Shown: positions 19,804 through 45,900 of the stretch, piece by piece | How positions within the stretch are numbered: the first letter of the stretch is position 1 | How the letters are laid out: each line of letters begins with the position of its first letter | Source of the DNA: Nitrospira sp. | Lineage (GTDB): Bacteria; Nitrospirota; Thermodesulfovibrionia; UBA6902 | DNA: 64,000 bases | Reading direction: 5' to 3' | NCBI GenBank assembly: GCA_016784355.1 | Contig: JADHUV010000013.1 | Coordinates: forward strand, 1-64,000 | Program-made: the position numbers and the translations under genes | Notes under the pieces: generated by a model | Databases searched by the model: none | Told to the model about the DNA's origin: nothing | What the model saw: the letters and a program-made list of their open reading frames with translations, nothing else

Positions 19804-19995
19804 CAATGATAAAGGAGAGTTGCCTGCCTTGTTTGTGAAAAGAATTGAAACTTTTTCCGACAATCGAGAATCTGGGAGCCAGCGTAAGGTAAGTGTTGTG
19901 CTGCCTGCGAGGGATTTGCCTGATCTTACTTTCATGGCACCCACCTGTGTGTACAGGGATTCAAGTTTTATTCTGCACGGCAAGGTGGGTCTAAT
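19804..19995 (+). ncRNA. Candidate 6S RNA (ssrS-like)
   Basis: No credible protein is encoded here, yet the sequence folds into one long rod. The closing stem pairs 19822-19831 with 19981-19990. A second stem pairs 19842-19852 (one bulge) with 19964-19973. A large asymmetric central bubble follows, with a small hairpin on its 3' side (19944-19948 with 19953-19957). The terminal arm pairs 19874-19881 with 19935-19942 and 19886-19893 with 19925-19932. This is the design of 6S RNA, which mimics an open promoter and sequesters the housekeeping RNA polymerase. The strong promoter, the size near 190 nt and the position upstream of rarA also fit. No sequence-level consensus was confirmed. Confidence 0.6.
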
Positions 19996-33181: not shown

Positions 33182-34108
33182 TCAATGATTCCCCATCATA
33201 GGCCGCTGCATCATGCCGCCCTGCATCCCATGACGATATACCATCATCCCGACCCGCTCGTCTCCGGACATATTCATCATACCGCCGCCTTTAGGAGCAT
33301 TACTGTTAAGTGCCTGTACATACGCTGACAGGGCCATCAGGTCCTCAGCTGATATGCCGTCAATGTATGATGCCATGGGTGTCCCGTCAAGACCGGTTGC
33401 CAGTGTAAGGTAAATGCTGTTAAGGTCAGAACCCCGCTTTAACGGGGCAGCTGCCAGGTTGCGGGGTATTACCTTAACTCCGCTGTCATCTTTCAGGTCA
33501 GCGGCCTTGGGCCCGTCTCCCCGTCCCATACTGCCGTGGCATTCTGTGCATTTTGCACGGGTATAGACCTGCATTCCTTTGTTGATAAGATCTTCATTAT
33601 TAGCGCGTACGGCCGGTATTGTAACGGGTGTTTCAATCTCTTCTTCTTCGAAACGATCAGAAAAAGATTTAATATAATAGGTCACGTTCCACTTTTCCTC
33701 ATCGCTTAGCATGGCCCAGGGGAGCATTGCGGTACCTCTTACGCCTAAGCTGATCGTAGTGAATATGTCCTCATCGGTCGGAAGTGAGCCGGAGGGGGTG
33801 GAGCGGAATTTATAGGTGCCGCCTGTAAAGTCTGTGGGCTTCACAATCAGGTCCATCGCATGGACGCCCTGACCGTCACCCTTGACTCCGTGGCAGGCGG
33901 TGCAGCGCTGATTATAGATCTGCCGTCCGGCCTCAATGGTAACGGCATTTTCTGCCGGCCTTATACCGGAGAGATCTGCCTTTATATCCTCTCCATTCAT
34001 CCATTTCTCCATGACATGGTGACGTCCCTGCATTCCATGCATTTGAGCAAAGCCGTAGACAGCAATAGCAAATACGAGTACCGCGCTTACCAGTATTACC
34101 CTTTTCAT
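33182..34108 (-). CDS. Periplasmic di-haem cytochrome c with Met-rich tail
   Basis: A signal peptide (1-21) is followed by two cytochrome c domains with haem motifs CTACH (69-73) and CTECH (187-191), each with downstream Met candidates for the sixth ligand. The C-terminal 40 residues are rich in Met and His (GGGMMNMSG, GMQGGMMQRPMM), as in periplasmic copper-binding tails. I start at the ATG that follows AAGGAGG by 5 bases. It lies downstream of the multicopper oxidase gene and probably passes electrons in the same copper-handling pathway; that role is inference. Confidence 0.9.
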   Translation of the reverse strand: MKRVILVSAVLVFAIAVYGFAQMHGMQGRHHVMEKWMNGEDIKADLSGIRPAENAVTIEAGRQIYNQRCTACHGVKGDGQGVHAMDLIVKPTDFTGGTYKFRSTPSGSLPTDEDIFTTISLGVRGTAMLPWAMLSDEEKWNVTYYIKSFSDRFEEEEIETPVTIPAVRANNEDLINKGMQVYTRAKCTECHGSMGRGDGPKAADLKDDSGVKVIPRNLAAAPLKRGSDLNSIYLTLATGLDGTPMASYIDGISAEDLMALSAYVQALNSNAPKGGGMMNMSGDERVGMMVYRHGMQGGMMQRPMMGNH

Positions 34109-34185
34109 AATATCCTCCTTTATTGGCGAATGTTTCATGCTTAGTTAAATAATACAGCGATAGTAAGTACAAAAAATGAAGAAAA

Positions 34186-34238: not shown

Positions 34239-36287
34239 TTAAAATTTAAGCCGTATACCGGCCCCGCCTTTATATTCAGAGTGGTAGGATGCTGTCAGTG
34301 ACAGGGACTTTGACAGTATCCAGCCTGCCCCGGCAGACCACTCTTCTTTATCTTTTGTGTCATATTGAAATTCTCCAAAGGCGAAAAGTCTGTCAGTAAG
34401 GGCAAGGCGGTTATCCACGGAAAAACGAAATTCTCCATCCGAGTCCAGCCAGAATGAGCTTTCAAACAGCAGCGGCAGAAGATATTTAAAGCCGGCTATT
34501 GCCCGCGGATCTTCATCCCCGGCCAGCGCTATTGCTGTATATAACTCTGCAAAACGAGATAAATAGCGGCTGTAGGAAAAAATGGCCTCATCTTCCTCGT
34601 CGTCCCAGTCAGCTTCCCACTGCAGCATTAAGGTGTTTCTGGTGTCAGCAATGCGGATAGTCCCTTCGGTCATCTGGCTAAGGATGGAGATCTCAGTACT
34701 GGCGTACCAGGTCTCTTTCTGAAAATATTTCCTTATATCCGCCAGTTGCGGTGATAATTCAGACCCTTCATAGTGTATTGCCCTAGCCATCCCTGCTTTC
34801 ATGTGATACAGGACATGGCAATGGAAAAACCAGTCTTTTTCCTCATCGGCATAAAATTCTATGATCGTTTCCCCGAGAGGCGGAACATCAACCGTGTGCT
34901 TCAGGGGTGAGTAATCTCCGTGACGGTTTAAGACCCTGAAAAAGTGCCCGTGCAGGTGCATGGGGTGGTGCATCATGGTCTTATTTATAAGGACGAAACG
35001 GACATTTTCTCCGCGTTTAATCTTAATCATATCCGCCTCATTCAGGGTTTTTCCGTTGATTGACCATATGTATCTCTCCATATCACCTGTAAGTTCAAGG
35101 CGCACCTCACGTAGAGGGCTCTCAGCGGGCAGGGTAGTAGGAAGCATAGATTTGAGATGTTCATAGGGGGGCATAGGACGCTCCTCCTCCGGCATTTCCA
35201 TCATATTGTGTTTCATCATATTGTCATGTTTCATTATCTTATCATCTGTCATCGGGTCAGCCATGTTTGTATGATCTCCGGCATGCATCTTATACAGATC
35301 CGGAAATGGGACATCCGGGGCTGTTATGCGGCTGCCGCGCCCGACAAACAATGATGTATGCCCTGACCCGTCCTGCGCAGTCGCGCGCAGTTCATATGCC
35401 CCGCCTGCCGGCACTGTAATAAAAACATCATAGGTCTCTGCTACGGCAATCAGAAAGCGGTTGCGGTCAACAGGCACTACATTGAGCCCGTCAGCAGATG
35501 TTATCTGCAAGGCGCCTCCCGCATAATGCAGATAAAAATAAGTAGAGGCTGCAGCATTGATAATCCGCAGATGTACTGTCTGTCCCGGCAGGGCGTCAAG
35601 CTCTTCTTCCGGGCCTCCATTTGTCAGAAATGCATCGTAGGCGACATCCGCAATATCCATCGGCGGCATCCGCATCAAGGAGCGCTGCAGTGTCTCTTTT
35701 AAGGCGCCTGCCTTAAGTGCCCCGCTTAGACTCTGCATAGTGCCTTTTTTCAGTGAGTAATAATCATTGCCGCTTTTCAGTGTGCGCAGGACTTCCTCAG
35801 GGTCCTCGTCTGTCCAGTCTGATAATACGACCACATGCTCCAGATCGGCCGTACTGCTTCCAGTCAGAGGTTCTACCACAAAAGCACCATATACACCCCG
35901 CTGCTCCTGAAGTCCTGTATGTGAGTGATACCAATAGGTTCCTGATTGTTTAAGGGGGAACTCATAGGTAAAGGAGCCTCCCGGCTTTATAGGCGGAGTC
36001 GTAAGGTAGGGTACCCCGTCCTGCAGGTTTGGCAGCAGTAAACCGTGCCAGTGTATGGATGTCTCAACAGCCATCTCATTGCGGACATGTATCCTGGCTG
36101 TTTCGCCTTCAGTGAAGCGCAGGACCGGGCCGGGAATACCGCCATTAATCGTCATGGCGGCAACATCATGTCCTGTCAGATTGATATTCTGAGAACGTAT
36201 CAGCAGGTTGTACTCTTTTGATGCAGCATAGGCATTACCGACGATAAGCGAAAGAATAAACAGGCAGCATATTATTTTTATTTTCAT
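34239..36287 (-). CDS. copA: CopA-type multicopper oxidase with C-terminal CopB-like barrel
   Basis: A signal peptide (1-21) is followed by three cupredoxin domains with the four copper motifs: HWHG (79-82), HSH (121-123), HPMHLHG (441-447) and HCHVLYH with Met500 (489-500). A Met/His-rich segment lies between about 330 and 375 (KMHAGDHTNM, KHDNMMKHNMM), as in CopA and CueO. The chain does not end at the oxidase: residues about 530-682 look like the barrel of the outer-membrane protein CopB (YSRYLSRFAELYTAI, alternating strands, terminal Phe), so two resistance proteins seem fused. It is likely to oxidise Cu(I) and hold copper at the periplasmic face of the outer membrane. Confidence 0.88.
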   Translation of the reverse strand: MKIKIICCLFILSLIVGNAYAASKEYNLLIRSQNINLTGHDVAAMTINGGIPGPVLRFTEGETARIHVRNEMAVETSIHWHGLLLPNLQDGVPYLTTPPIKPGGSFTYEFPLKQSGTYWYHSHTGLQEQRGVYGAFVVEPLTGSSTADLEHVVVLSDWTDEDPEEVLRTLKSGNDYYSLKKGTMQSLSGALKAGALKETLQRSLMRMPPMDIADVAYDAFLTNGGPEEELDALPGQTVHLRIINAAASTYFYLHYAGGALQITSADGLNVVPVDRNRFLIAVAETYDVFITVPAGGAYELRATAQDGSGHTSLFVGRGSRITAPDVPFPDLYKMHAGDHTNMADPMTDDKIMKHDNMMKHNMMEMPEEERPMPPYEHLKSMLPTTLPAESPLREVRLELTGDMERYIWSINGKTLNEADMIKIKRGENVRFVLINKTMMHHPMHLHGHFFRVLNRHGDYSPLKHTVDVPPLGETIIEFYADEEKDWFFHCHVLYHMKAGMARAIHYEGSELSPQLADIRKYFQKETWYASTEISILSQMTEGTIRIADTRNTLMLQWEADWDDEEDEAIFSYSRYLSRFAELYTAIALAGDEDPRAIAGFKYLLPLLFESSFWLDSDGEFRFSVDNRLALTDRLFAFGEFQYDTKDKEEWSAGAGWILSKSLSLTASYHSEYKGGAGIRLKF

Positions 36288-36387: not shown

Positions 36388-36609
36388 TTACTGTAGGTCG
36401 TTTTTTTTCTCTATATACTCAGCCCTGCTGATATCTCCCCTGGCATATCTCTGGTTTAATATTTCAAGGGTATTTTCAGACTTCTTTGTATTCTTGCCTT
36501 TCCCGAGCAGTGAACTGATTAAGTATATGACTCCCAATATTACGAGCAGCCAGAATGCCATCATAAAGAACCAGCCGAACCCCATTCCCCATCCATAATC
36601 AAAATGCAT
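36388..36609 (-). CDS. Small SHOCT-domain membrane protein
   Basis: A 73-residue protein with one membrane helix (about 12-34), a Lys-rich link and a C-terminal SHOCT motif (ILNQRYARGDISRAEYIEKKNDL). SHOCT proteins of this kind often accompany copper and metal resistance genes; function is unknown. The N-terminal HFDYGWGMGFGW is aromatic and Gly-rich. It lies about 100 bp upstream of the oxidase on the same strand. Confidence 0.85.
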   Translation of the reverse strand: MHFDYGWGMGFGWFFMMAFWLLVILGVIYLISSLLGKGKNTKKSENTLEILNQRYARGDISRAEYIEKKNDLQ

Positions 36610-36739: not shown

Positions 36740-36835
36740 ATTATGAAGTATGTTTAAATTACTATAAATAAAGAGGTGCTTATCTGTGATGTTGAATTGT
36801 ATAGTAAACAGCGCCTGTAATTGGAGAGGAGCAAT

Positions 36836-37039
36836 ATGTCTGAAATAAAATTATCAATTGACGGTATGAGTTGTCAGCATTGTGTAAAGAGTGTTCAGCA
36901 GGCTCTGGATAATGCTGATGGTGTGCAAAACAGTCAGGTTGCAATAGGGAGTGTTACTATTCAATACGATGAGTTGAAAGTGGATAAAACGGCCTTGGCA
37001 GTGCTTATACAGAGTGCAGGCTTTAAGGTTGTTGAGTGA
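36836..37039 (+). CDS. copZ: CopZ-like heavy-metal-associated copper chaperone
   Basis: A 67-residue ferredoxin-like HMA protein with the metal motif GMSCQHC, which binds Cu(I) or Ag(I) between two Cys. I start at the ATG preceded by GGAGAGGAG; a TTG five codons upstream is less likely. It overlaps the next gene by 4 nt. It should act in the cytoplasm as a copper carrier, but no copper P-type ATPase is in the window. Confidence 0.92.
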   Translation: MSEIKLSIDGMSCQHCVKSVQQALDNADGVQNSQVAIGSVTIQYDELKVDKTALAVLIQSAGFKVVE

Positions 37040-37419
37040 AGCTCTTTTGGTCTGCAATTATCGCCGTAATTATTGCTGCAGTAATCTGGTTTATGCTGAA
37101 CCGCGGAGAGTCACCCGTGCAGGATGTTCTTCAAATGCCTGCGGAAGAGGTCATTGAAAAGTGCATTATCATGAAGCCGCAACAGGTGCTGCACTATGAA
37201 TTTAATGCATCTGCACCTCTCAAATTCAATCTGCATTACCACCTCGAGAACAAAACGGTTTTTCATGTTAAGGAAATTACAGAGAAGCGCAATGAAATTT
37301 TTCATCCTGTTACGGAGCAGACGGTATATTGTTTGGAATGGAGGAATTTAACAGATCAAGAGGTGAGGCTGCAATACAGGTATCAAATACTTCGTGATAA
37401 TAAAGAGCAGGGTCGTTGA
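37036..37419 (+). CDS. Hypothetical membrane-anchored beta-sandwich protein
   Basis: I do not recognise this gene. The 127-residue product has an N-terminal anchor helix (2-20), then a periplasmic domain with alternating hydrophobic strands: HYEFNASAPLKFNLHYHLEN, HPVTEQTVYCLEWRNLT and QEVRLQYRYQI. The pattern is like small beta sandwiches such as GOLD-type domains. The GTG start overlaps the CopZ-like gene end by 4 nt, so it is made together with that chaperone; a role in copper handling is inference from the coupling. Confidence 0.75.
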   Translation: MKLFWSAIIAVIIAAVIWFMLNRGESPVQDVLQMPAEEVIEKCIIMKPQQVLHYEFNASAPLKFNLHYHLENKTVFHVKEITEKRNEIFHPVTEQTVYCLEWRNLTDQEVRLQYRYQILRDNKEQGR

Positions 37420-37522: not shown

Positions 37523-38086
37523 TTAATCAGCAAGCAGAAAATCCACCAGAGCATGCATCGCTTCTGAGTCCCACTCTCCGTATCCCGGTGAAGCGCCTAT
37601 CAGTTCGCCTCTTTTGTTGATGAGGAACTTAATTGGATGCCGTAAAACAGCATATTCATTACTCACTTTTTTATCGCTGTCAGGCAGGGCGGTTACTGTA
37701 TAGTTATGCTTTTTCATGAAAGCCTCTACAGCGGCCTTCTGCTCCCCGGAGGATATCATCAGCACATGAAACGGCTTGTCCTTATGCTTCTGATGCAGCG
37801 TTTCCAGAGAAGGGAACTCCTTCCTGCACCAGCCTCACCAGGTTGTCCAGAATCCGAGCATAATTACTTCATCCTGCATTTGACTGAGTTGTACGATTTG
37901 ACCGTCAAGTGCGTTCAGAATAAAGTCAGGCGCTTTTTCAGCTTTATTGAAATGATAGAACTTCATTGAAGACAGCAGGGTTTTTAATTCTGCGTCTTTA
38001 TCTTCAGCTGTGACAGTGGCAGGAAAAGTCGTTATACCCGCAATTAGCATGGTCATCGCGATTATGATAAAGGTGCTTTTTTTCAT
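37523..38086 (-). CDS. TlpA/ResA-like thioredoxin, probable selenoprotein (Sec-Gly-Trp-Cys)
   Basis: Read through one in-frame UGA (37837-37835), this is a complete 187-residue exported thioredoxin-fold protein. It has a Sec signal peptide (1-27), APDFILNALDGQ, then the active-site strand GFWTTW, codon 84 = UGA, G85 W86 C87, RKEFPS, and the cis-Pro region RHPIKFLINKRGELIG. UGA replaces exactly the first Cys of CXXC. The rest is intact, and a hairpin with a 5-bp stem and AGUUC loop starts 12 nt after the UGA, where a bacterial SECIS sits. It lies 45 bp downstream of a mono-haem cytochrome gene on the same strand. A sequencing error or a nonsense mutation is the alternative. Confidence 0.8.
37809..37837 (-). 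promoter_or_regulatory. Candidate bacterial SECIS element
   Basis: On the minus strand, UGA (37837-37835) is followed after 11 nt by stem GAAGG (37823-37819), loop AGUUC (37818-37814) and stem CCUUC (37813-37809). The loop starts 17 nt past the UGA and carries a GU, close to the spacing in fdhF. Confidence 0.6.
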
Positions 38087-38131: not shown

Positions 38132-38674
38132 TTACTTTAAGGTCTTCAGGTATTTAATAAGATCTTCGAGATCTTTATCATTCATCAGGAAACGAGGCAT
38201 ATTGTGGTCCAGCGGTTTGCCGGCAGGGTTGAGTCCGCCTGTGATGGCGCGTTTGATAAGCTCGTCTGTATAGCGCTTATGAGAATCTGCTACCCCGCCA
38301 TGATGATGTTCCTTATACATTAGATTTTTGTATCTGATGTCTGCGGGCTTAACATCACCGGTAGGTGCGTCTTCCTCGCCTTTTCCGGTATCTCCATGGC
38401 ACGCTGCACAGCTGACAATATCATCCGGTTCAATCCATTCAGGGCCGCCCCGGTGCGCTATTTTGCCGCTGAGCATACTGATCCCGGTGTGATATATTTT
38501 CTCTCCGTTTAAAATGTCGGTCCTGGCTTGAGCGGGTTCATCCTTTGATATGCTTTCAATGAGATGCCCCTTATTGTGGGTATCTGCGGCCATAGATTCA
38601 TAATTCGTTTGCATTACGGCATAGCTAGATAAGATAATTGTAATTAATAAGGTTGCCCGCGATATTTTATTCAT
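38132..38674 (-). CDS. Periplasmic mono-haem cytochrome c
   Basis: A signal peptide (about 1-30) is followed by one class I cytochrome domain of unusual layout: a GGPEWIEPDD segment, haem motif CAACH, a His-rich HHHGG stretch and HNMPRF as probable Met ligand. The 180-residue chain is the first gene of a two-gene unit with the Sec-containing thioredoxin. It may pass electrons to or from that protein; this is inference from linkage. Confidence 0.88.
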   Translation of the reverse strand: MNKISRATLLITIILSSYAVMQTNYESMAADTHNKGHLIESISKDEPAQARTDILNGEKIYHTGISMLSGKIAHRGGPEWIEPDDIVSCAACHGDTGKGEEDAPTGDVKPADIRYKNLMYKEHHHGGVADSHKRYTDELIKRAITGGLNPAGKPLDHNMPRFLMNDKDLEDLIKYLKTLK

Positions 38675-38755: not shown

Positions 38756-38938
38756 GTTATAGATTAGTATTATAAATTGATAAATGATTGAATTATTTTA
38801 GTAAGAAAGACCGCTAAAGCTGGTTATAGTATATAAAGCAGGTATCAGGCTCTTTATGAATAGGTAAATTTGAATAGCGCGGAGTCATTAGCTAATTATT
38901 GATGACTAATTATATAAAAGATATAAATGGGGTATGAA

Positions 38939-39334
38939 ATGAAACAGATTATCAAGGTTATGGTGGTGGTGTTATTATTAACGGGACTGGCATTTGCTAA
39001 TATCCTTACTGAGGATATAAAGTCCGGTGATATGACGGTGAGAGTGATTAGAGATGCTCATTCTTATCAGGTCGGTGCTAATGAGGTGCTTGTGGAACTG
39101 GTTGATAAAGATGGGCATAAAGTTTCAGGTGCAGACGTATATGTATATTACTTCATGCCGTCCATGCCCGCGATGAACTATACGGTCAAGGCCGAGCATA
39201 GAGGCGGTGCATATGCATTTAATATCAAACTTACTATGTCAGGAGAGTGGGTTTCCGAAATCCGGTTCAAAAAAGCGGATGGAGAAGAGGGTAAGGCCGT
39301 AAGTAAGTTTAAGGCAGGAACACATGCCCATTAG
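38939..39334 (+). CDS. YtkA/FixH-like periplasmic protein
   Basis: A 131-residue exported protein with an N-terminal signal (1-21) and an immunoglobulin-like YtkA domain containing VYYFMPSMPAMNY and GEWVSEIRF. Met-rich PSMPAM loops in this family suggest copper binding. I start at the ATG before KQIIKV, six bases after GGGG. It opens the operon with cusCBA. Confidence 0.85.
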   Translation: MKQIIKVMVVVLLLTGLAFANILTEDIKSGDMTVRVIRDAHSYQVGANEVLVELVDKDGHKVSGADVYVYYFMPSMPAMNYTVKAEHRGGAYAFNIKLTMSGEWVSEIRFKKADGEEGKAVSKFKAGTHAH

Positions 39335-39352: not shown

Positions 39353-40621
39353 GTGAAAAAAATTTATCTCCTCATTGCTCTTATTATTACACTTTTCAGT
39401 GTCTATCCGGCAGAGTCCGGCAGTGCAGGAGATGAGCATGTCCTCGAGTATCTGATTGCTGAGGCCCTTCAGAACAATCCTGAAATTATGGCATACTCCC
39501 GGAAAGTTGAGGCCTTTGCCCAGAGACCGTCCCAGGTCACATCTCTTGATGATCCTATGCTCGGGATCACCATGGCGAACCTTCCTCTTGATACATTAAG
39601 ATTCGATCAGGAGGCCATGACTCAAAAGCTGATTTCGGTAAAGCAGAAGATCCCCTTTCCTGGCAAACTCGGGCTTAAGGGTGATATTGCAGAACAGGAT
39701 CTGGCCATAGCCGGCCAGGAATATGATGAAGCAAAAAACCGTATCAAGGCCAATGTGAAATCAGCCTATTATGATCTCACCTTTGTAACAAGAGCTCTTG
39801 AAATTACAAAGCGCAACAGGCTGCTGCTGGCGGAATCGCTGCCTGCGGCAGAGACGCAATATGCGGTATCTGAAGCAACGCAGCTTGATGTTGTAAAGGC
39901 TCACATTCAGCTCTCAGGAATATTAAGGAAACAGATTCTGCTTGATCAGAAAAAGGAGACAGCTGATGCGCGGATCAATAATCTGCTCGGACGACATGCT
40001 CGCGAAGCCATTGCTATTGGAGATTTTGTACCTACCGCTATGACGCATTCTCAGGAGGAGCTGACTCAGGCGGCGGAAAGCAGCAGGCCCGCGCTTAAGG
40101 CGCTGAATCTGAAAGCGGTCAAGGCCGGACTTCTACATAGCCTTGCTGAGAAGGAGTACTACCCGGACTTTGATATCGGTGTGAGTTACGGACAGCGGGA
40201 TGACTCCGGAGCGGTGAACAGGCCGGATTTCTTTTCTGCCGGGGTCTCTATAAATATTCCGCTTTGGCACAGGAATAAAGAGGGGCGTAAGGTTGCGGAG
40301 GAAAAGGCCGGGATAGATGCCGCATTACAGCAGTACGAGGCCATGCGGAATGATCTGATATTTCAGATTGCCCGGTTAAGTGCTGAAATCAGGCAGCTTG
40401 AGAGAGAGGCCGAACTGTTTAAGACAGGGCTTATCCCTCAGAGCAGTATCTCATATGAGACTATACTTTCTGATTATAAGCTTAGTAAGGCCGGTTTTCT
40501 GGCAATTATAAAAAGTCAGATTGAACGCAGTGATTATGAATTAGAACATTACCGGTTGCAGGTTGATCGGGAGAAAAAACTCGCAGAACTTGAGGCAGTT
40601 GTAGGACAGAAACTTTATTGA
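39353..40621 (+). CDS. cusC: Outer-membrane efflux protein (CusC/TolC family)
   Basis: A signal sequence (about 1-23) precedes the two OEP repeats that make a trimeric beta barrel and alpha tunnel. Marks include EYLIAEALQNNPEI, FGK-like IPFPGKLGLKG and ISINIPLWHRNKEGRKV. No lipobox Cys is visible, unlike E. coli CusC. The GTG start follows AAAGGA. It is the outer-membrane exit duct for the RND pump encoded next. Confidence 0.93.
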   Translation: MKKIYLLIALIITLFSVYPAESGSAGDEHVLEYLIAEALQNNPEIMAYSRKVEAFAQRPSQVTSLDDPMLGITMANLPLDTLRFDQEAMTQKLISVKQKIPFPGKLGLKGDIAEQDLAIAGQEYDEAKNRIKANVKSAYYDLTFVTRALEITKRNRLLLAESLPAAETQYAVSEATQLDVVKAHIQLSGILRKQILLDQKKETADARINNLLGRHAREAIAIGDFVPTAMTHSQEELTQAAESSRPALKALNLKAVKAGLLHSLAEKEYYPDFDIGVSYGQRDDSGAVNRPDFFSAGVSINIPLWHRNKEGRKVAEEKAGIDAALQQYEAMRNDLIFQIARLSAEIRQLEREAELFKTGLIPQSSISYETILSDYKLSKAGFLAIIKSQIERSDYELEHYRLQVDREKKLAELEAVVGQKLY

Positions 40622-40660
40622 GCCGCTATGCAGTAGAATGATTTACGGGGGTATGTTTAG

Positions 40661-42439
40661 ATGTTTCAAAAGTTAAAGACATTCAGTATGATTTCACTGC
40701 TCTTAATATCTTCTGCAGTAATGGAAAATAGTTATTTCGGCGAACCAGGTCTGTTTGTGCCGGCATCGGTCATGGCGGCGGAGAATCACGATGCATCTGT
40801 AAAGGCAGATAAAAAGATAAAATATTGGGTTGCTCCCATGGATCCTGCCTATATAAGGGATAAGCCCGGAAAATCGCCTATGGGCATGGATCTCGTTCCT
40901 GTATATGAAGATGCCGGAGAACCCTCTGCCGAGGGGGTGATAAAGATCGATCCTGTTACGGTTCAAAATATAGGGGTCAGGACAGCAATAGTTACCAGTG
41001 ATAATGTACGCAGGGAAATTCACGCTGCCGGCCGTATTACCTATAATGAAAAACTTGTCGAACATATTCACTCAAAAGTATCTGGATGGATAGAGAACTT
41101 ATATGTTGATACAGGCGGGCAGGAGGTAAGCAAGGGGGAAGTACTGCTGGATTTTTATTCTCCGGTCCTTGTCTCTGCTCAGGAGGAGTACCTGACGGCC
41201 CTTAAGTATAGAAACCTGACCGCCGACTCTGCCTTTACGGAAATTTCAAGGGCAGCAGAATCGCTTCTGGATGCAGCACAGAAAAAGTTGTTGTACCTGG
41301 ATATCTCACCTGCGCAAATAGAAGAACTTCAGAGGAGCGGCGAGGTCCAGAAAAATATAAGTCTTCTTGCCGGTAAGCAGGGGACTGTCATTGAGAAATT
41401 TATCCTTGACGGCATGAAAATAAACCCCGGAATGGAGCTGTACACTATGGCCGACCTGTCCCGTGTATGGGTAATCGCTTCAGTTTATGAATATGAGATC
41501 CCTTTTATCAGGATCGGGCAGGCAGTAGAGATGACACTTGTATCTGAACCCGGTGTAAGATTTGCCGGCAAAATCACATTTATATATCCCTATATTTCAG
41601 GCAAGACGCGCACGATACAGCTGCGGATGGAGTTTGATAACCCGGAGTTTAAGCTGAAGCCTGATATGTATGCCGATGTTGTCATAAGCTCTGAAGCAAG
41701 TGAGCGGACCCCTGTTGTTCCATCTGAAGCAGTGCTGCGTACCGGTTCGCGAAATGTAGTTATTACGTCCCTTGGAGATGGCAAGTTCCTGCCAAAGGAA
41801 GTGACCCTCGGAGTTGAAGGCGTCGAGATTGTTCAGATACTTGCCGGCCTGAAGGAAGGGGAGGAAGTCGTCACATCCGGACAGTTTCTTATCGACTCTG
41901 AGAGTAATTTAAGAGAAGCGGTCAATAAAATGCTGGATGCCAGAGCAGAGAAGGCAGAAGGCATCGATCCGCAGGCAGGGCATATACATGAAGCAGAACA
42001 TATACACGGGGCGGATGACGGCACGGCAGAGGTAATGGGGCAGCTTCTTAATGAGTATCTTAAGATGCACGAAGCTCTGGTGAGGGAGTCTGCTGCGGAT
42101 GTAGCTGAGCAGGCCCTGATGCTTTCGTACACGCTGGCGGATTTGAGCTTAATTAATGATGATGTCTATCTGCAGGATATTGCCGGTCAAATCGAAAATT
42201 CCCTTCCTGGACTCTCTTCAGGTGATCTTGATGCTGCAAGAAATTCATTTAAAATGTTCAGCCGTGCAATGTTTGAATATTTGAAAAATGTAGACGGGCA
42301 GATTCCAGGTGCTGAAGGGGTAAAGGCTTATCACTGCCCCATGGAAAATGAGTATTGGATACAGAAGGAAGGAGATCTAAAAAATCCCTATCTTGGAGAA
42401 GATATGTGGATTTGCGGTACTGAGGAAGAGCTTAGATGA
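40661..42439 (+). CDS. cusB: Efflux periplasmic adaptor (CusB family) with extra metal-binding domains
   Basis: After a signal peptide comes a heavy-metal-binding motif (YWVAPMDPAYIRDKPGKSPMGMD, about 54-76), then the adaptor core: barrel-sandwich hybrid, alpha hairpin and beta barrel (GRITYNEKLVEHIHSKVSGW, GEVVTSGQFLIDSE). From about 425 the chain adds a His-rich stretch, a helical domain of the DUF3347 type and a C-terminal CPMENEYWIQ...GEDMWIC segment that repeats the metal-motif style. At 592 residues it is much longer than E. coli CusB (about 407). It overlaps cusA by 4 nt. Confidence 0.92.
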   Translation: MFQKLKTFSMISLLLISSAVMENSYFGEPGLFVPASVMAAENHDASVKADKKIKYWVAPMDPAYIRDKPGKSPMGMDLVPVYEDAGEPSAEGVIKIDPVTVQNIGVRTAIVTSDNVRREIHAAGRITYNEKLVEHIHSKVSGWIENLYVDTGGQEVSKGEVLLDFYSPVLVSAQEEYLTALKYRNLTADSAFTEISRAAESLLDAAQKKLLYLDISPAQIEELQRSGEVQKNISLLAGKQGTVIEKFILDGMKINPGMELYTMADLSRVWVIASVYEYEIPFIRIGQAVEMTLVSEPGVRFAGKITFIYPYISGKTRTIQLRMEFDNPEFKLKPDMYADVVISSEASERTPVVPSEAVLRTGSRNVVITSLGDGKFLPKEVTLGVEGVEIVQILAGLKEGEEVVTSGQFLIDSESNLREAVNKMLDARAEKAEGIDPQAGHIHEAEHIHGADDGTAEVMGQLLNEYLKMHEALVRESAADVAEQALMLSYTLADLSLINDDVYLQDIAGQIENSLPGLSSGDLDAARNSFKMFSRAMFEYLKNVDGQIPGAEGVKAYHCPMENEYWIQKEGDLKNPYLGEDMWICGTEEELR

Positions 42440-45400
42440 TTGAAAAAGTCATCGAGTACTCGATCAGGAATCGTTTTCTGGTCATTATAGCTGCCATCGC
42501 TATTTTTGCGGTTGGTCTGTACTCTCTGGCAAATACGCCCCTTGATGCAATTCCTGATCTTTCTGATGTTCAGGTAATAGTCTTTACCGAATATCCGGGA
42601 CAGGCTCCTCAGGTCGTTGAGGATCAGGTAACTTATCCGCTTACAACAGCGATGCTCTCTGTGCCGGGGGCAAGGGTGGTCAGGGGTTACTCTTTTTTCG
42701 GCTTCTCCTTTGTCTACATTATTTTTGATGACGGAACAGATTTGTACTGGGCAAGAAGCAGAGTTCTTGAGTATATAAACTATGTATCAAAACGTCTGCC
42801 CAGTGGAGTGACACCTTCTCTTGGCCCTGATGCTACCGGTGTCGGCTGGATATATGAGTATGCCCTGGTCGACAGGACAGGCAAACATGATCTTTCGGAA
42901 CTGCGCTCAATACAGGACTGGTTCCTCAGATATGAGCTTACCTCTGTGGACGGTGTTTCTGAAGTAGCCTCGGTTGGTGGTTTTGTAAAACAGTACCAGA
43001 TTGATGTTGATCCCAATAAGCTGGCATCTTACGGCATCCCGCTGTCAAAAGTTAAAACTGCCATACAGCGTTCCAATAGAGATGTCGGTGGACGTCTCCT
43101 TGAGATGTCCGAGCGGGAGTATATGGTAAGAGGTCTGGGTTACATAAAGTCAGTGCAGGACATAAAGGATATTCCCCTTGGAGTTGATGATTCAGGCACC
43201 CCGATTTATGTAAGTGATATTGCTCATGTGCACATCGGGCCGGAACTCAGAAGAGGGATTACTGAGCTGGACGGAGAGGGCGAAGTAGCGGGAGGTATCG
43301 TTGTAATGCGCTTTGGTGAGAATGCCCTCGCTACTATCGAGCGTGTAAAAGAGAAGCTTGAAAGTCTTAAGTCCGGACTCCCGGAAGGCGTTGAGATTAT
43401 ACCGGTTTATGACAGGTCGGGTCTTATAAAAAGGGCCGTTAATACTCTTCAGGAAAAACTCATAGAGGAGTCGATAGTTGTCTCCTTGATATGCATAATC
43501 TTTCTCCTTCACTTTAGATCCGCTCTGGTAGCTATCGTTACCCTTCCGCTTGGAATTTTGGTTGCATTTATGATTATGAGATATCAGGGGCTCAATGCAA
43601 ATATTATGTCGCTTGGAGGCATAGCGATCGCAATTGGTGCGATGGTCGATGCAGCGATCGTGATGATTGAAAATGCTCATAAACACCTTGAAAAACAGAG
43701 CGGTGATATTGACCACTGGGCAGTAATTACAATAGCTTCAAAACAGGTTGGGCCGGCGCTTTTCTTTTCACTCCTGATAATCACGTTTTCTTTTATGCCG
43801 ATCTTTACACTGCAGGCCCAGGAAGGCAGGCTTTTTACTCCTTTGGCTTTTACAAAGACCTATTCCATGGCAGCGGCAGCACTGCTTGCCATTACGGTCG
43901 TCCCGGTTATGATGGGTTATTTTATACGCACCTCAATCCTGCCCGCCGCCTGGAGCATGAGAAAGCAGAAAGGAGTCTCAGTCTTGATAGGTCTCGGGAT
44001 ATTTCTCGCAGTATGGCATCTGCCTGAATATTTCATGCCTTATACTGTATTTGGAGCATTTGCTATGCCGATAGCTATTATTTCCGGTACTGCAGCATTG
44101 TTGTTTTTATGGCCGCAGGCTATCTGCCCGGAAGAAAATAATCCTGTAAACAGATTACTGATAAGACTTTACCGGCCCTTTATAACCTGGGTACTGAGGC
44201 ATAAATTTATAACTATTGCCCTTGCACTGCTCGTAACCATGACTATTCTGCCAGTAAGGGCACTAATTATTGATAAGCTTCCTGACGGCATGCTTAAAAA
44301 TGCCGCGGCAAAGCTTGAGATCTTTTTTCCGGTAGAAAAAATAGGCGGTGAATTTATGCCCCCGCTTTATGAAGGAGATCTTTTATACATGCCAACTACC
44401 CTGCCGGGCATTTCCATCACAAAGGCACGGGAGTTGCTGCAGCAGACAGATAAGATAATCAAGACATTTCCAGAGGTTGAGCATGTCTTTGGGAAGGTCG
44501 GGCGGGCTGATACCGCTACTGATCCCGCACCGCTTTCCATGCTTGAGTCCACTATTACGCTTAAGCCGGGCGAGGAGTGGCGAAAGATAAAGGTAGAGAG
44601 ATTTTATTCCGGCTGGCCGGAGTTCCTCAGCAATCCTCTTTCTAAGGTTTTTCCGGAAGAACGGGCTATTACTTCAAAAGAGCTTATGGACGAGATGAAT
44701 AAAGCCATACAGTTTCCCGGACTTACAAACGCCTGGACTATGCCTATTAAGACAAGGATTGATATGTTGGCGACAGGCATTAAAACGCCTGTTGGAATTA
44801 AGATCATGGGCGATGACCTTGAGAAACTGTCTTCCATTGGACAAAGTATTGAAGCGCGTCTCAGAGCAGTCCCGGGCACGCTCTCTGTATATTCTGAGCG
44901 GGTAAGCGGAGGGTATTATCTTGATTTTGAGATCAACCGGAGGGCCGCTGCGAGATACGGACTTACAACCGGCGATATTCAGGATGTAATTCAATCAGCG
45001 ATAGGCGGTATGAACATAACAGAGACCGTTGAAGGTCTCGAGCGTTATCCCGTTAATCTGAGGTACGGCAGGGAAATGCGAGATTCACTTCAAAAATTGC
45101 AGCGGGTGCTTGTGCCCACTCCTTCCGGCACCCAAATTCCTATTAGCCAGGTTGCTAATATCAGGATTAAACAGGGCCCTCCTGCTATTAAAAGTGAAAA
45201 CTCCAGGATGACCGCATGGGTTTACATTGATCTTGAGGGCGTTGATGTGGCCTCATACGTTAAGGAGGCCAAAAAAGTTATTGCAAAGGATATTGCCCTG
45301 CCGGAAGGCTACAGTCTTGTATGGTCAGGGCAATATGAATATATGGAGCGGGCGAATAAAAGACTCATGATAGTTGTACCGGTTACGCTCATTATTATCT

Positions 45401-45900
45401 TTCTGCTGCTTTATCTTAATTTCAAGAATATTGCAGAGTCGCTGATAGTTATGCTCTCGCTGCCCTTTGCCATTGTAGGGGGAGTATGGTTTATTTACTT
45501 TCTCGATTATGACATGAGCATCGCTGTTGGTGTAGGTTTTATAGCACTTGCCGGGGTAGCGGCAGAGACCGGTGTTATTATGCTTATCTACCTGGATGAG
45601 GCTTATCTGCATAAGCTATATGAAAAGGGAAAAGAGATGAGAGCTGCAGATGTGTATGATGCAGTCATGTTCGGTGCTGTCGAGAGAGTCAGGCCGAAGG
45701 TAATGACCGTTACCGCTATAATGGCGGGGTTGCTGCCTATATTCTGGGGTCATGGTGCCGGTGCTGACACAATGAGGCGCATAGCGGCACCGATGATCGG
45801 CGGGATGGTCTCATCGACTATACTCACATTAATTGTCATACCGGCCATATACGCGGCCTGGAAGGTCTGGAAATTAAAGAAGGAACAAGGAGCTGAGTGA
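42436..45900 (+). CDS. cusA: Cu(I)/Ag(I) RND efflux pump CusA
   Basis: The inner-membrane proton-driven pump of 1154 residues with 12 membrane helices and two large periplasmic loops. The TM4 signature GAMVDAAIVMIENAHKHLE is that of the monovalent-cation (HME4, CusA/SilA) group, not the divalent CzcA group. Other marks are NTPLDAIPDLSDVQVI near the N-terminus, Met residues in the periplasmic cleft (GGEFMPPLYEGDLLYMPTT) and GVAAETGVIMLIYLDEA in TM10. An extra hydrophobic segment near 510-560 makes it longer than E. coli CusA (1047). Confidence 0.95.
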   Translation: MIEKVIEYSIRNRFLVIIAAIAIFAVGLYSLANTPLDAIPDLSDVQVIVFTEYPGQAPQVVEDQVTYPLTTAMLSVPGARVVRGYSFFGFSFVYIIFDDGTDLYWARSRVLEYINYVSKRLPSGVTPSLGPDATGVGWIYEYALVDRTGKHDLSELRSIQDWFLRYELTSVDGVSEVASVGGFVKQYQIDVDPNKLASYGIPLSKVKTAIQRSNRDVGGRLLEMSEREYMVRGLGYIKSVQDIKDIPLGVDDSGTPIYVSDIAHVHIGPELRRGITELDGEGEVAGGIVVMRFGENALATIERVKEKLESLKSGLPEGVEIIPVYDRSGLIKRAVNTLQEKLIEESIVVSLICIIFLLHFRSALVAIVTLPLGILVAFMIMRYQGLNANIMSLGGIAIAIGAMVDAAIVMIENAHKHLEKQSGDIDHWAVITIASKQVGPALFFSLLIITFSFMPIFTLQAQEGRLFTPLAFTKTYSMAAAALLAITVVPVMMGYFIRTSILPAAWSMRKQKGVSVLIGLGIFLAVWHLPEYFMPYTVFGAFAMPIAIISGTAALLFLWPQAICPEENNPVNRLLIRLYRPFITWVLRHKFITIALALLVTMTILPVRALIIDKLPDGMLKNAAAKLEIFFPVEKIGGEFMPPLYEGDLLYMPTTLPGISITKARELLQQTDKIIKTFPEVEHVFGKVGRADTATDPAPLSMLESTITLKPGEEWRKIKVERFYSGWPEFLSNPLSKVFPEERAITSKELMDEMNKAIQFPGLTNAWTMPIKTRIDMLATGIKTPVGIKIMGDDLEKLSSIGQSIEARLRAVPGTLSVYSERVSGGYYLDFEINRRAAARYGLTTGDIQDVIQSAIGGMNITETVEGLERYPVNLRYGREMRDSLQKLQRVLVPTPSGTQIPISQVANIRIKQGPPAIKSENSRMTAWVYIDLEGVDVASYVKEAKKVIAKDIALPEGYSLVWSGQYEYMERANKRLMIVVPVTLIIIFLLLYLNFKNIAESLIVMLSLPFAIVGGVWFIYFLDYDMSIAVGVGFIALAGVAAETGVIMLIYLDEAYLHKLYEKGKEMRAADVYDAVMFGAVERVRPKVMTVTAIMAGLLPIFWGHGAGADTMRRIAAPMIGGMVSSTILTLIVIPAIYAAWKVWKLKKEQGAE

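Follow-up and report, generated by a model that had tools for sequence, protein, structure and literature searches.

Sec-TlpA, a predicted exported thioredoxin-like protein with a putative selenocysteine (Sec, U) in its active site, is encoded on the minus strand of the window, the whole stretch of 64,000 nucleotides analysed here (Table 1). Its gene is flanked on one side by genes for a CopA-type multicopper oxidase and cytochrome c and on the other by a YtkA-TolC-CusB-CusA group, and it is probably co-transcribed with the neighbouring mono-haem cytochrome c gene. TolC was assigned by homology to the OEP protein of L215. Two small RNAs are encoded on the plus strand of the window: the bacterial small SRP RNA (1180-1278) and 6S RNA (19818-19995).

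Table 1. Features at and around the Sec-TlpA gene in the window.
Feature	Position	Strand	Remarks
Sec-TlpA gene	37523..38086	-	187 aa, predicted exported TlpA/ResA-like thioredoxin; active site WTTW-U-GWCRKE; cis-Pro 151 (RHPIKF)
UGA, predicted to be read as selenocysteine (U84, first position of UxxC)	37835..37837	-	UGA in 40/40 Sec rows compared
Putative N-terminal hydrophobic signal sequence MKKSTFIIIAMTMLIAGITTFPATVTA	38001..38086	-	sequence inspection; N-terminal helix in model
SECIS hairpin	37808..37824	-	6-bp stem GGAAGG/CCUUCU; loop AGUUC (37814-37818) begins 16 nt after UGA
Di-haem cytochrome c	33182..34138	-	
CopA-type multicopper oxidase	34239..36287	-	TIGR01480 431 bits, below cut-off of 479; 62% identical in G018
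SHOCT-domain small membrane protein	36388..36609	-	
HMA domain, CopZ-like copper chaperone	36821..37039	+	relatives near Sec-TlpA in G007, G018, G142
Small exported protein	37036..37419	+	homologue 57% identical near Sec-TlpA in G018
Mono-haem cytochrome c (CAACH)	38132..38674	-	45 bases upstream of Sec-TlpA, same strand
YtkA-like exported protein	38927..39334	+	
TolC-like outer membrane protein, CusB-like adaptor, CusA/CzcA-type heavy-metal RND pump	39353..45900	+	TIGR00914 1206 bits; CusB 209 bits

An earlier note on this DNA had described two frames of the same phase split by a single UGA that falls on the first Cys of a CXXC motif. Both statements hold: the minus-strand ORF 38086..37835 (83 aa) ends at the TGA at 37837-37835, and the same frame runs on to a TAA at 37525-37523, which places U84 of the joined product in FWTTW-U-GWCRKE. 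As also claimed, UGA is an ordinary stop elsewhere, since TGA terminates 19 of the 54 window ORFs of at least 100 aa. The statement that no other frame in the window is interrupted in this way is correct for the sense strand. Mechanically, eight TGAs are flanked on each side by 75 or more open codons, but the other seven (11251, 21862, 41833, 44674, 55663, 59901, 63764) are all antisense inside genes of the listed ORFs. This means that the Sec-TlpA UGA is the sole sense-strand case in the window. Gene callers split Sec-TlpA into two fragments or truncate it.

The joined protein matches the Pfam families AhpC-TSA (6e-23), Redoxin and Thioredoxin_8. Its AlphaFold2 model (32-sequence alignment) has a pLDDT of 94. 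In this model, helix 85-100 begins right behind residue 84, and strand 152-156 follows immediately after P151, which is the arrangement expected of thioredoxins. The best PDB matches are 3kcm (Geobacter), ResA and the Bradyrhizobium TlpA-ScoI complex 4txo. The predicted thioredoxin fold with active site and cis-Pro is supported, and fold, WCxxC motif with U as first Cys, cis-Pro and structural match assign the protein to the TlpA/ResA-like family.

SECIS hairpin and conservation of the UGA

The hairpin downstream of the UGA lies within a DNA pattern match at 37806-37840 (0 expected by chance). It agrees with the published bSECIS model in its NGU loop, a loop length of 5 nt and a spacing of 16 nt (PMC13188914). 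In the family, synonymous variation is almost absent from codons +3 to +9 after the UGA: their normalised codon entropy is 0.12 vs a median of 0.81, the lowest value elsewhere being 0.60. In 21 Cys homologues, which are devoid of the hairpin, the same codons have an entropy of 0.73 and no freeze is seen. The synonymous choices are almost invariant (GAG 38/38, AAG 36/36, CCT 37/37, AGG 33/34). In the family hairpin GGAAGG-AGUUN-CCUUCY, every pair is formed in 37-38 of 38 sequences, with 16 nt between UGA and loop. In three sequences, the change of Arg AGG to Lys AAG is matched by that of Ser TCC to TCT, which replaces a closing G-C pair by A-U. Sliding controls score below the hairpin position. 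A search of the locus against Rfam matched no SECIS family.

Taken by itself, the minimal hairpin of the window copy is a weaker form. The 17-nt hairpin with its closing G-U has -6.1 kcal/mol compared to a bSECIS threshold of -7.5; when the lower stem is included, the value is -16.6, and the family consensus has -8.1. For the 48-nt region alone, the folding z-score of -1.1 is not significant. The SECIS case rests on the family. Being almost invariant, the hairpin can also serve as a DNA pattern by which the family is found in assemblies that lack annotation.

The earlier note had asked whether homologues contain Cys or UGA at position 84, and it had named unrelated stops at other positions as a sign of decay. 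In 150 genomes of relatives, the best 34 matches outside the window gene (E below about 1e-31) each have exactly one TGA, at the same codon wherever the sequence was read, and separate Cys homologues exist. Decay is not what these sequences show. Because the UGA is conserved at the same codon in dozens of homologues, a chance UGA is excluded.

In a second tree of 66 sequences, 39 UGA proteins form a single clade (support 100/99) with zero Cys members, even when the nearest Cys relatives found elsewhere in the phylum are added. To our knowledge, nearly all selenoproteins have Cys homologues, so that a clade which is Sec-only in the 39 members compared is unusual. This raises a testable question: why has no Cys version been found in the clade? 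Its members are nearly all Nitrospirota (Thermodesulfovibrionia), and the SECIS-region DNA pattern matches public records that are, with few exceptions, Nitrospirota/Thermodesulfovibrionia MAGs. The exceptions are a Desulfatiglandales MAG, matched on two contigs, and another labelled Deferribacteres. The clade comprises a UGWC group (with UEWC, UTWC and USWC) and a UPWC group. The window gene belongs to the UGWC group, where it adjoins the gene of genome G018 on a long branch (1.0-1.3 vs a median of about 0.35). The first tree supports the UGWC group as a subclade (99/95), whereas the second does not resolve it as one. A lipobox-like Cys is present in several UPWC homologues. The surroundings of the UPWC Sec-TlpA gene (L146:5706-6401; equivalents in L130, L131, L140 and L142) are conserved and encode a response regulator, a histidine kinase and two small proteins that match no Pfam family, one of which contains a KPVTPYGDF motif.

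The source genome, G000, contains two further UGA-TlpA genes, on contigs C4 and C88. The C4 copy belongs to the same clade, and both clade copies keep the hairpin. The C88 gene (C88:1518-1931, UPYC) is nested in an otherwise Cys clade (CPYC or CGYC) and has a hairpin unlike that of the Sec-only clade; its position points to a separate Cys-to-Sec change. SelD scores over its cut-off and has a UGA at its catalytic position (KAAGUAAKLGP). All three UGA-TlpA frames and the UGA-selD frame are open and without other lesion. Together, the conserved UGA, the SECIS hairpin, the Sec-only clade, the two additional UGA-TlpA genes and the UGA-containing selD make it very probable that U84 is a selenocysteine in an exported thiol reductant, with Sec insertion and export both predicted from sequence.

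Genomic context and possible role

The copper-resistance island next to a mono-haem cytochrome, as which the earlier note had described the locus, is supported and can be extended to relatives. Copper genes adjoin 6 of the 10 UGWC subclade loci and Ccm cytochrome c genes adjoin three others, in total 9 of 10, compared with 0 of 11 UPWC loci for copper and Ccm neighbours together. In G007, an HMA gene is located upstream and CopC-CopD downstream of Sec-TlpA on the same strand. In G018, HMA and the homologue of the small exported protein lie within 7 kb, and MCO-YtkA-TolC-CusB genes are found about 18 kb away on the same contig. An HMA-type P-type ATPase and DUF302 are near Sec-TlpA in G028, HMA and a UGA-DsbC gene in G142, and in G096, MerR and a P-type ATPase with YHS/HMBD are followed by UGA-DsbC. 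Copper linkage is not seen in every member. In the UPWC sister group, copper-query genes are present within 7 kb in 0 of 11 loci (Fisher p=0.004, kinship not corrected for). The Ccm genes are those of G082, G098 and G143, and the Ccm operons concerned encode their own Cys CcmG-like protein.

At L144:2468-3250 (+; DPD-U-PYC) and L218:7640-8410 (+; DPD-U-PFS), DsbC-like genes have an in-frame TGA where the first Cys of the active site is expected. In G096, the UGA-DsbC gene is directly 5' of Sec-TlpA; the DsbC homologue of G008 (L148:5776-6558) has Cys. In G018, G082 and G142, a large Fer4_5 membrane protein is encoded directly upstream of Sec-TlpA. It comprises about 920 residues (L135:8055-10829, L136:4353-7250, L144:4037-6790), with a weak DOMON match in one case.

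The following mechanism can be proposed. The in-frame UGA would be translated as selenocysteine through the usual bacterial pathway (SelA, SelB, SelD, tRNA-Sec), under the direction of the SECIS hairpin with its apical loop beginning 16 nt downstream of the UGA. The exported product, with a TlpA/ResA fold and a U-G-W-C active site, would be a periplasmic reductant. By analogy to TlpA and ResA, it would most likely maintain cysteine pairs in copper-binding proteins, in apocytochromes c or in both in the reduced state, ready for metal or heme insertion. U84 would attack the target disulfide and C87 would resolve it, with chemistry and direction of electron flow deduced from the relatives' scheme. 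The oxidised protein would be re-reduced by a membrane donor; the Fer4_5 membrane protein may be this donor. ResA and CcmG reduce apocytochrome c thiols. TlpA reduces ScoI and COX II (PMC6696091).

That thiols of copper or heme sites are the main targets is a moderately likely proposal. It would link the use of selenium to the handling of copper and cytochrome c in the periplasm, in a phylum that has been little studied. A more general role, e.g. in cytochrome c maturation or in disulfide or peroxide stress, with the copper island as an incidental neighbour, is a serious competitor, if somewhat short of probable. It would fit the three members of the same subclade at Ccm operons, the cytochrome c genes beside the window copy and the UPWC sister clade without copper neighbours, but copper genes at six subclade loci in arrangements as varied as Cus/MCO, CopC-CopD and HMA P-type ATPases speak against it. 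Still more tentative, and rather unlikely in this strict form, is a copper-dedicated role, in which the UGWC subclade would be a dedicated selenium-dependent reductase of periplasmic copper sites. If it were true, the reductase would be inherited together with copper chaperones, pumps and oxidases in Thermodesulfovibrionia, and Sec would be retained in all members because a selenolate is required for thiols that are damaged by or loaded with copper.

Selenocysteine machinery and other readings of the UGA

The earlier note had proposed a search of the genome for selA, selB, selC and selD and had considered a lack of Sec machinery as evidence against a selenoprotein. The UGA-containing selD is present. 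By contrast, selA, selB and tRNA-Sec (selC) were not found by profile and tRNA searches in the source assembly (92% complete, 88 contigs). Taken literally, the objection applies to these three genes in an assembly which is also devoid of other essential genes. The tRNA-Sec candidates in the genome score no more than 37 bits and are ordinary tRNAs for Ser, Leu, Tyr, Trp and Gly, and the SelB HMM matches are partial and comprise the GTPase part only.

If the Sec machinery had been lost in the lineage, the UGA genes would be recent relics whose products end at W83. The three absent genes and the long branches of the G000 copies could be interpreted in this way, but such a loss is very unlikely. 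ObgE is near-universal in bacteria, and neither obgE nor the tRNAs for Asn, His and Phe were found in the source assembly, in which 33 tRNA genes were detected. In G012 and G013, proB and obgE are located within about 8 kb of selAB, so that one gap could explain the missing selA and selB. SelB is present in 93 of the 101 genomes searched, tRNA-Sec in 47 of 61. Since obgE and three tRNAs are missing as well and selB is so widespread, an assembly gap is much likelier than loss. Furthermore, the four UGA frames free of other lesions, the hairpin retained in both clade copies and the UGA of the C88 gene in an otherwise Cys group argue against relics. The absence of tRNA-Sec is weak evidence, since nine family members with SelB are also without a detectable tRNA-Sec.

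These nine genomes (G001, G010, G012, G014, G020, G022, G027, G028, G029; one of them 100% complete) have no Rfam tRNA-Sec match and possibly encode a divergent or selB-overlapping selC. No selC was found inside or beside selB of G001 and G012.

The lack of a tRNA-Sec match in the assembly could also suggest that the UGA is read as Cys or Trp or by near-cognate readthrough. This is highly improbable: no UCA-anticodon tRNA is among the tRNA genes found, UGA is a normal stop elsewhere, the UGA always occupies a catalytic Cys position and is followed by the SECIS hairpin, and relatives have SelA, SelB and tRNA-Sec. Normal UGA stops and the lack of a UCA tRNA also rule out a genome-wide reassignment of UGA. 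Although the draft assembly consists of 88 contigs, the probability that the TGA stems from faulty sequencing or assembly, or that the gene is an ordinary pseudogene, is practically negligible, as the identical TGA in dozens of independent assemblies and genera and purifying selection on the hairpin rule out decay and error.

Comparison with known selenoproteins and thiol reductants

The earlier note had called the gene a probable new selenoprotein. This is correct for the Sec-only clade, for which no NCBIfam model scores over its cut-off. The kind is already catalogued: UxxC Prx-like/TlpA-like selenoproteins (PF00578, cd02966, PF08534) are contained in the 2026 inventory (PMC13188914). This means, Sec-TlpA is a new clade of an already recognised selenoprotein kind. 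The view that a Sec protein in a metal-resistance locus would be unusual needs qualification, since there are precedents: the inventory's table includes Sec forms of a Cu/Zn efflux transporter (SO_0444 family), of CopZ-family proteins, of a mercuric transport protein and of a cation-transporting ATPase (PMC13188914). A partial literature search found no report of a selenoprotein TlpA in a copper locus or of the copper linkage of the clade.

The Prx-like thiol:disulfide oxidoreductase selenoprotein (WP_010940744.1; PMC13188914 Table 1, PMC1794560) shares the Pfam family PF00578, the UxxC motif and a predicted Sec with Sec-TlpA. The two are likened by description, not by sequence, and the accessible part of its description mentions no copper linkage. 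Likewise by description, the thiol-disulfide isomerase-like (cd02966, TlpA-like) and Redoxin-family (PF08534) UxxC selenoproteins in the same table share the TlpA-like fold and UxxC (PMC13188914). The ResA-like WAxxUGC motif protein (NF041054, WAxxUGC_long) represents a ResA-like selenoprotein family of NCBIfam. Against this model, Sec-TlpA scores 43.6 bits (cut-off 300), and NF041054 proteins are longer and have a U-G-C motif instead of UGWC.

Among the Cys reductants, ResA/CcmG are similar in that ResA (NF002854) is the best NCBIfam match and among the best PDB matches and three relatives are located at Ccm operons. They differ by the Sec of Sec-TlpA, by a ResA score of 96 of 170 bits, i.e. 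under the cut-off, and by the Cys CcmG-like protein which those operons already encode. The TlpA equivalog (NF047696) is also under its cut-off (65 of 230 bits). Bradyrhizobium TlpA (1jfu, 4txo, 4txv) is a membrane-anchored protein with Cys instead of Sec and about 25% identity, and the substrates ScoI and CoxB are its own. It shares with Sec-TlpA, whose export is predicted, the exported TlpA fold, WCxxC with cis-Pro and the structural match, and it is a reductant of copper proteins.
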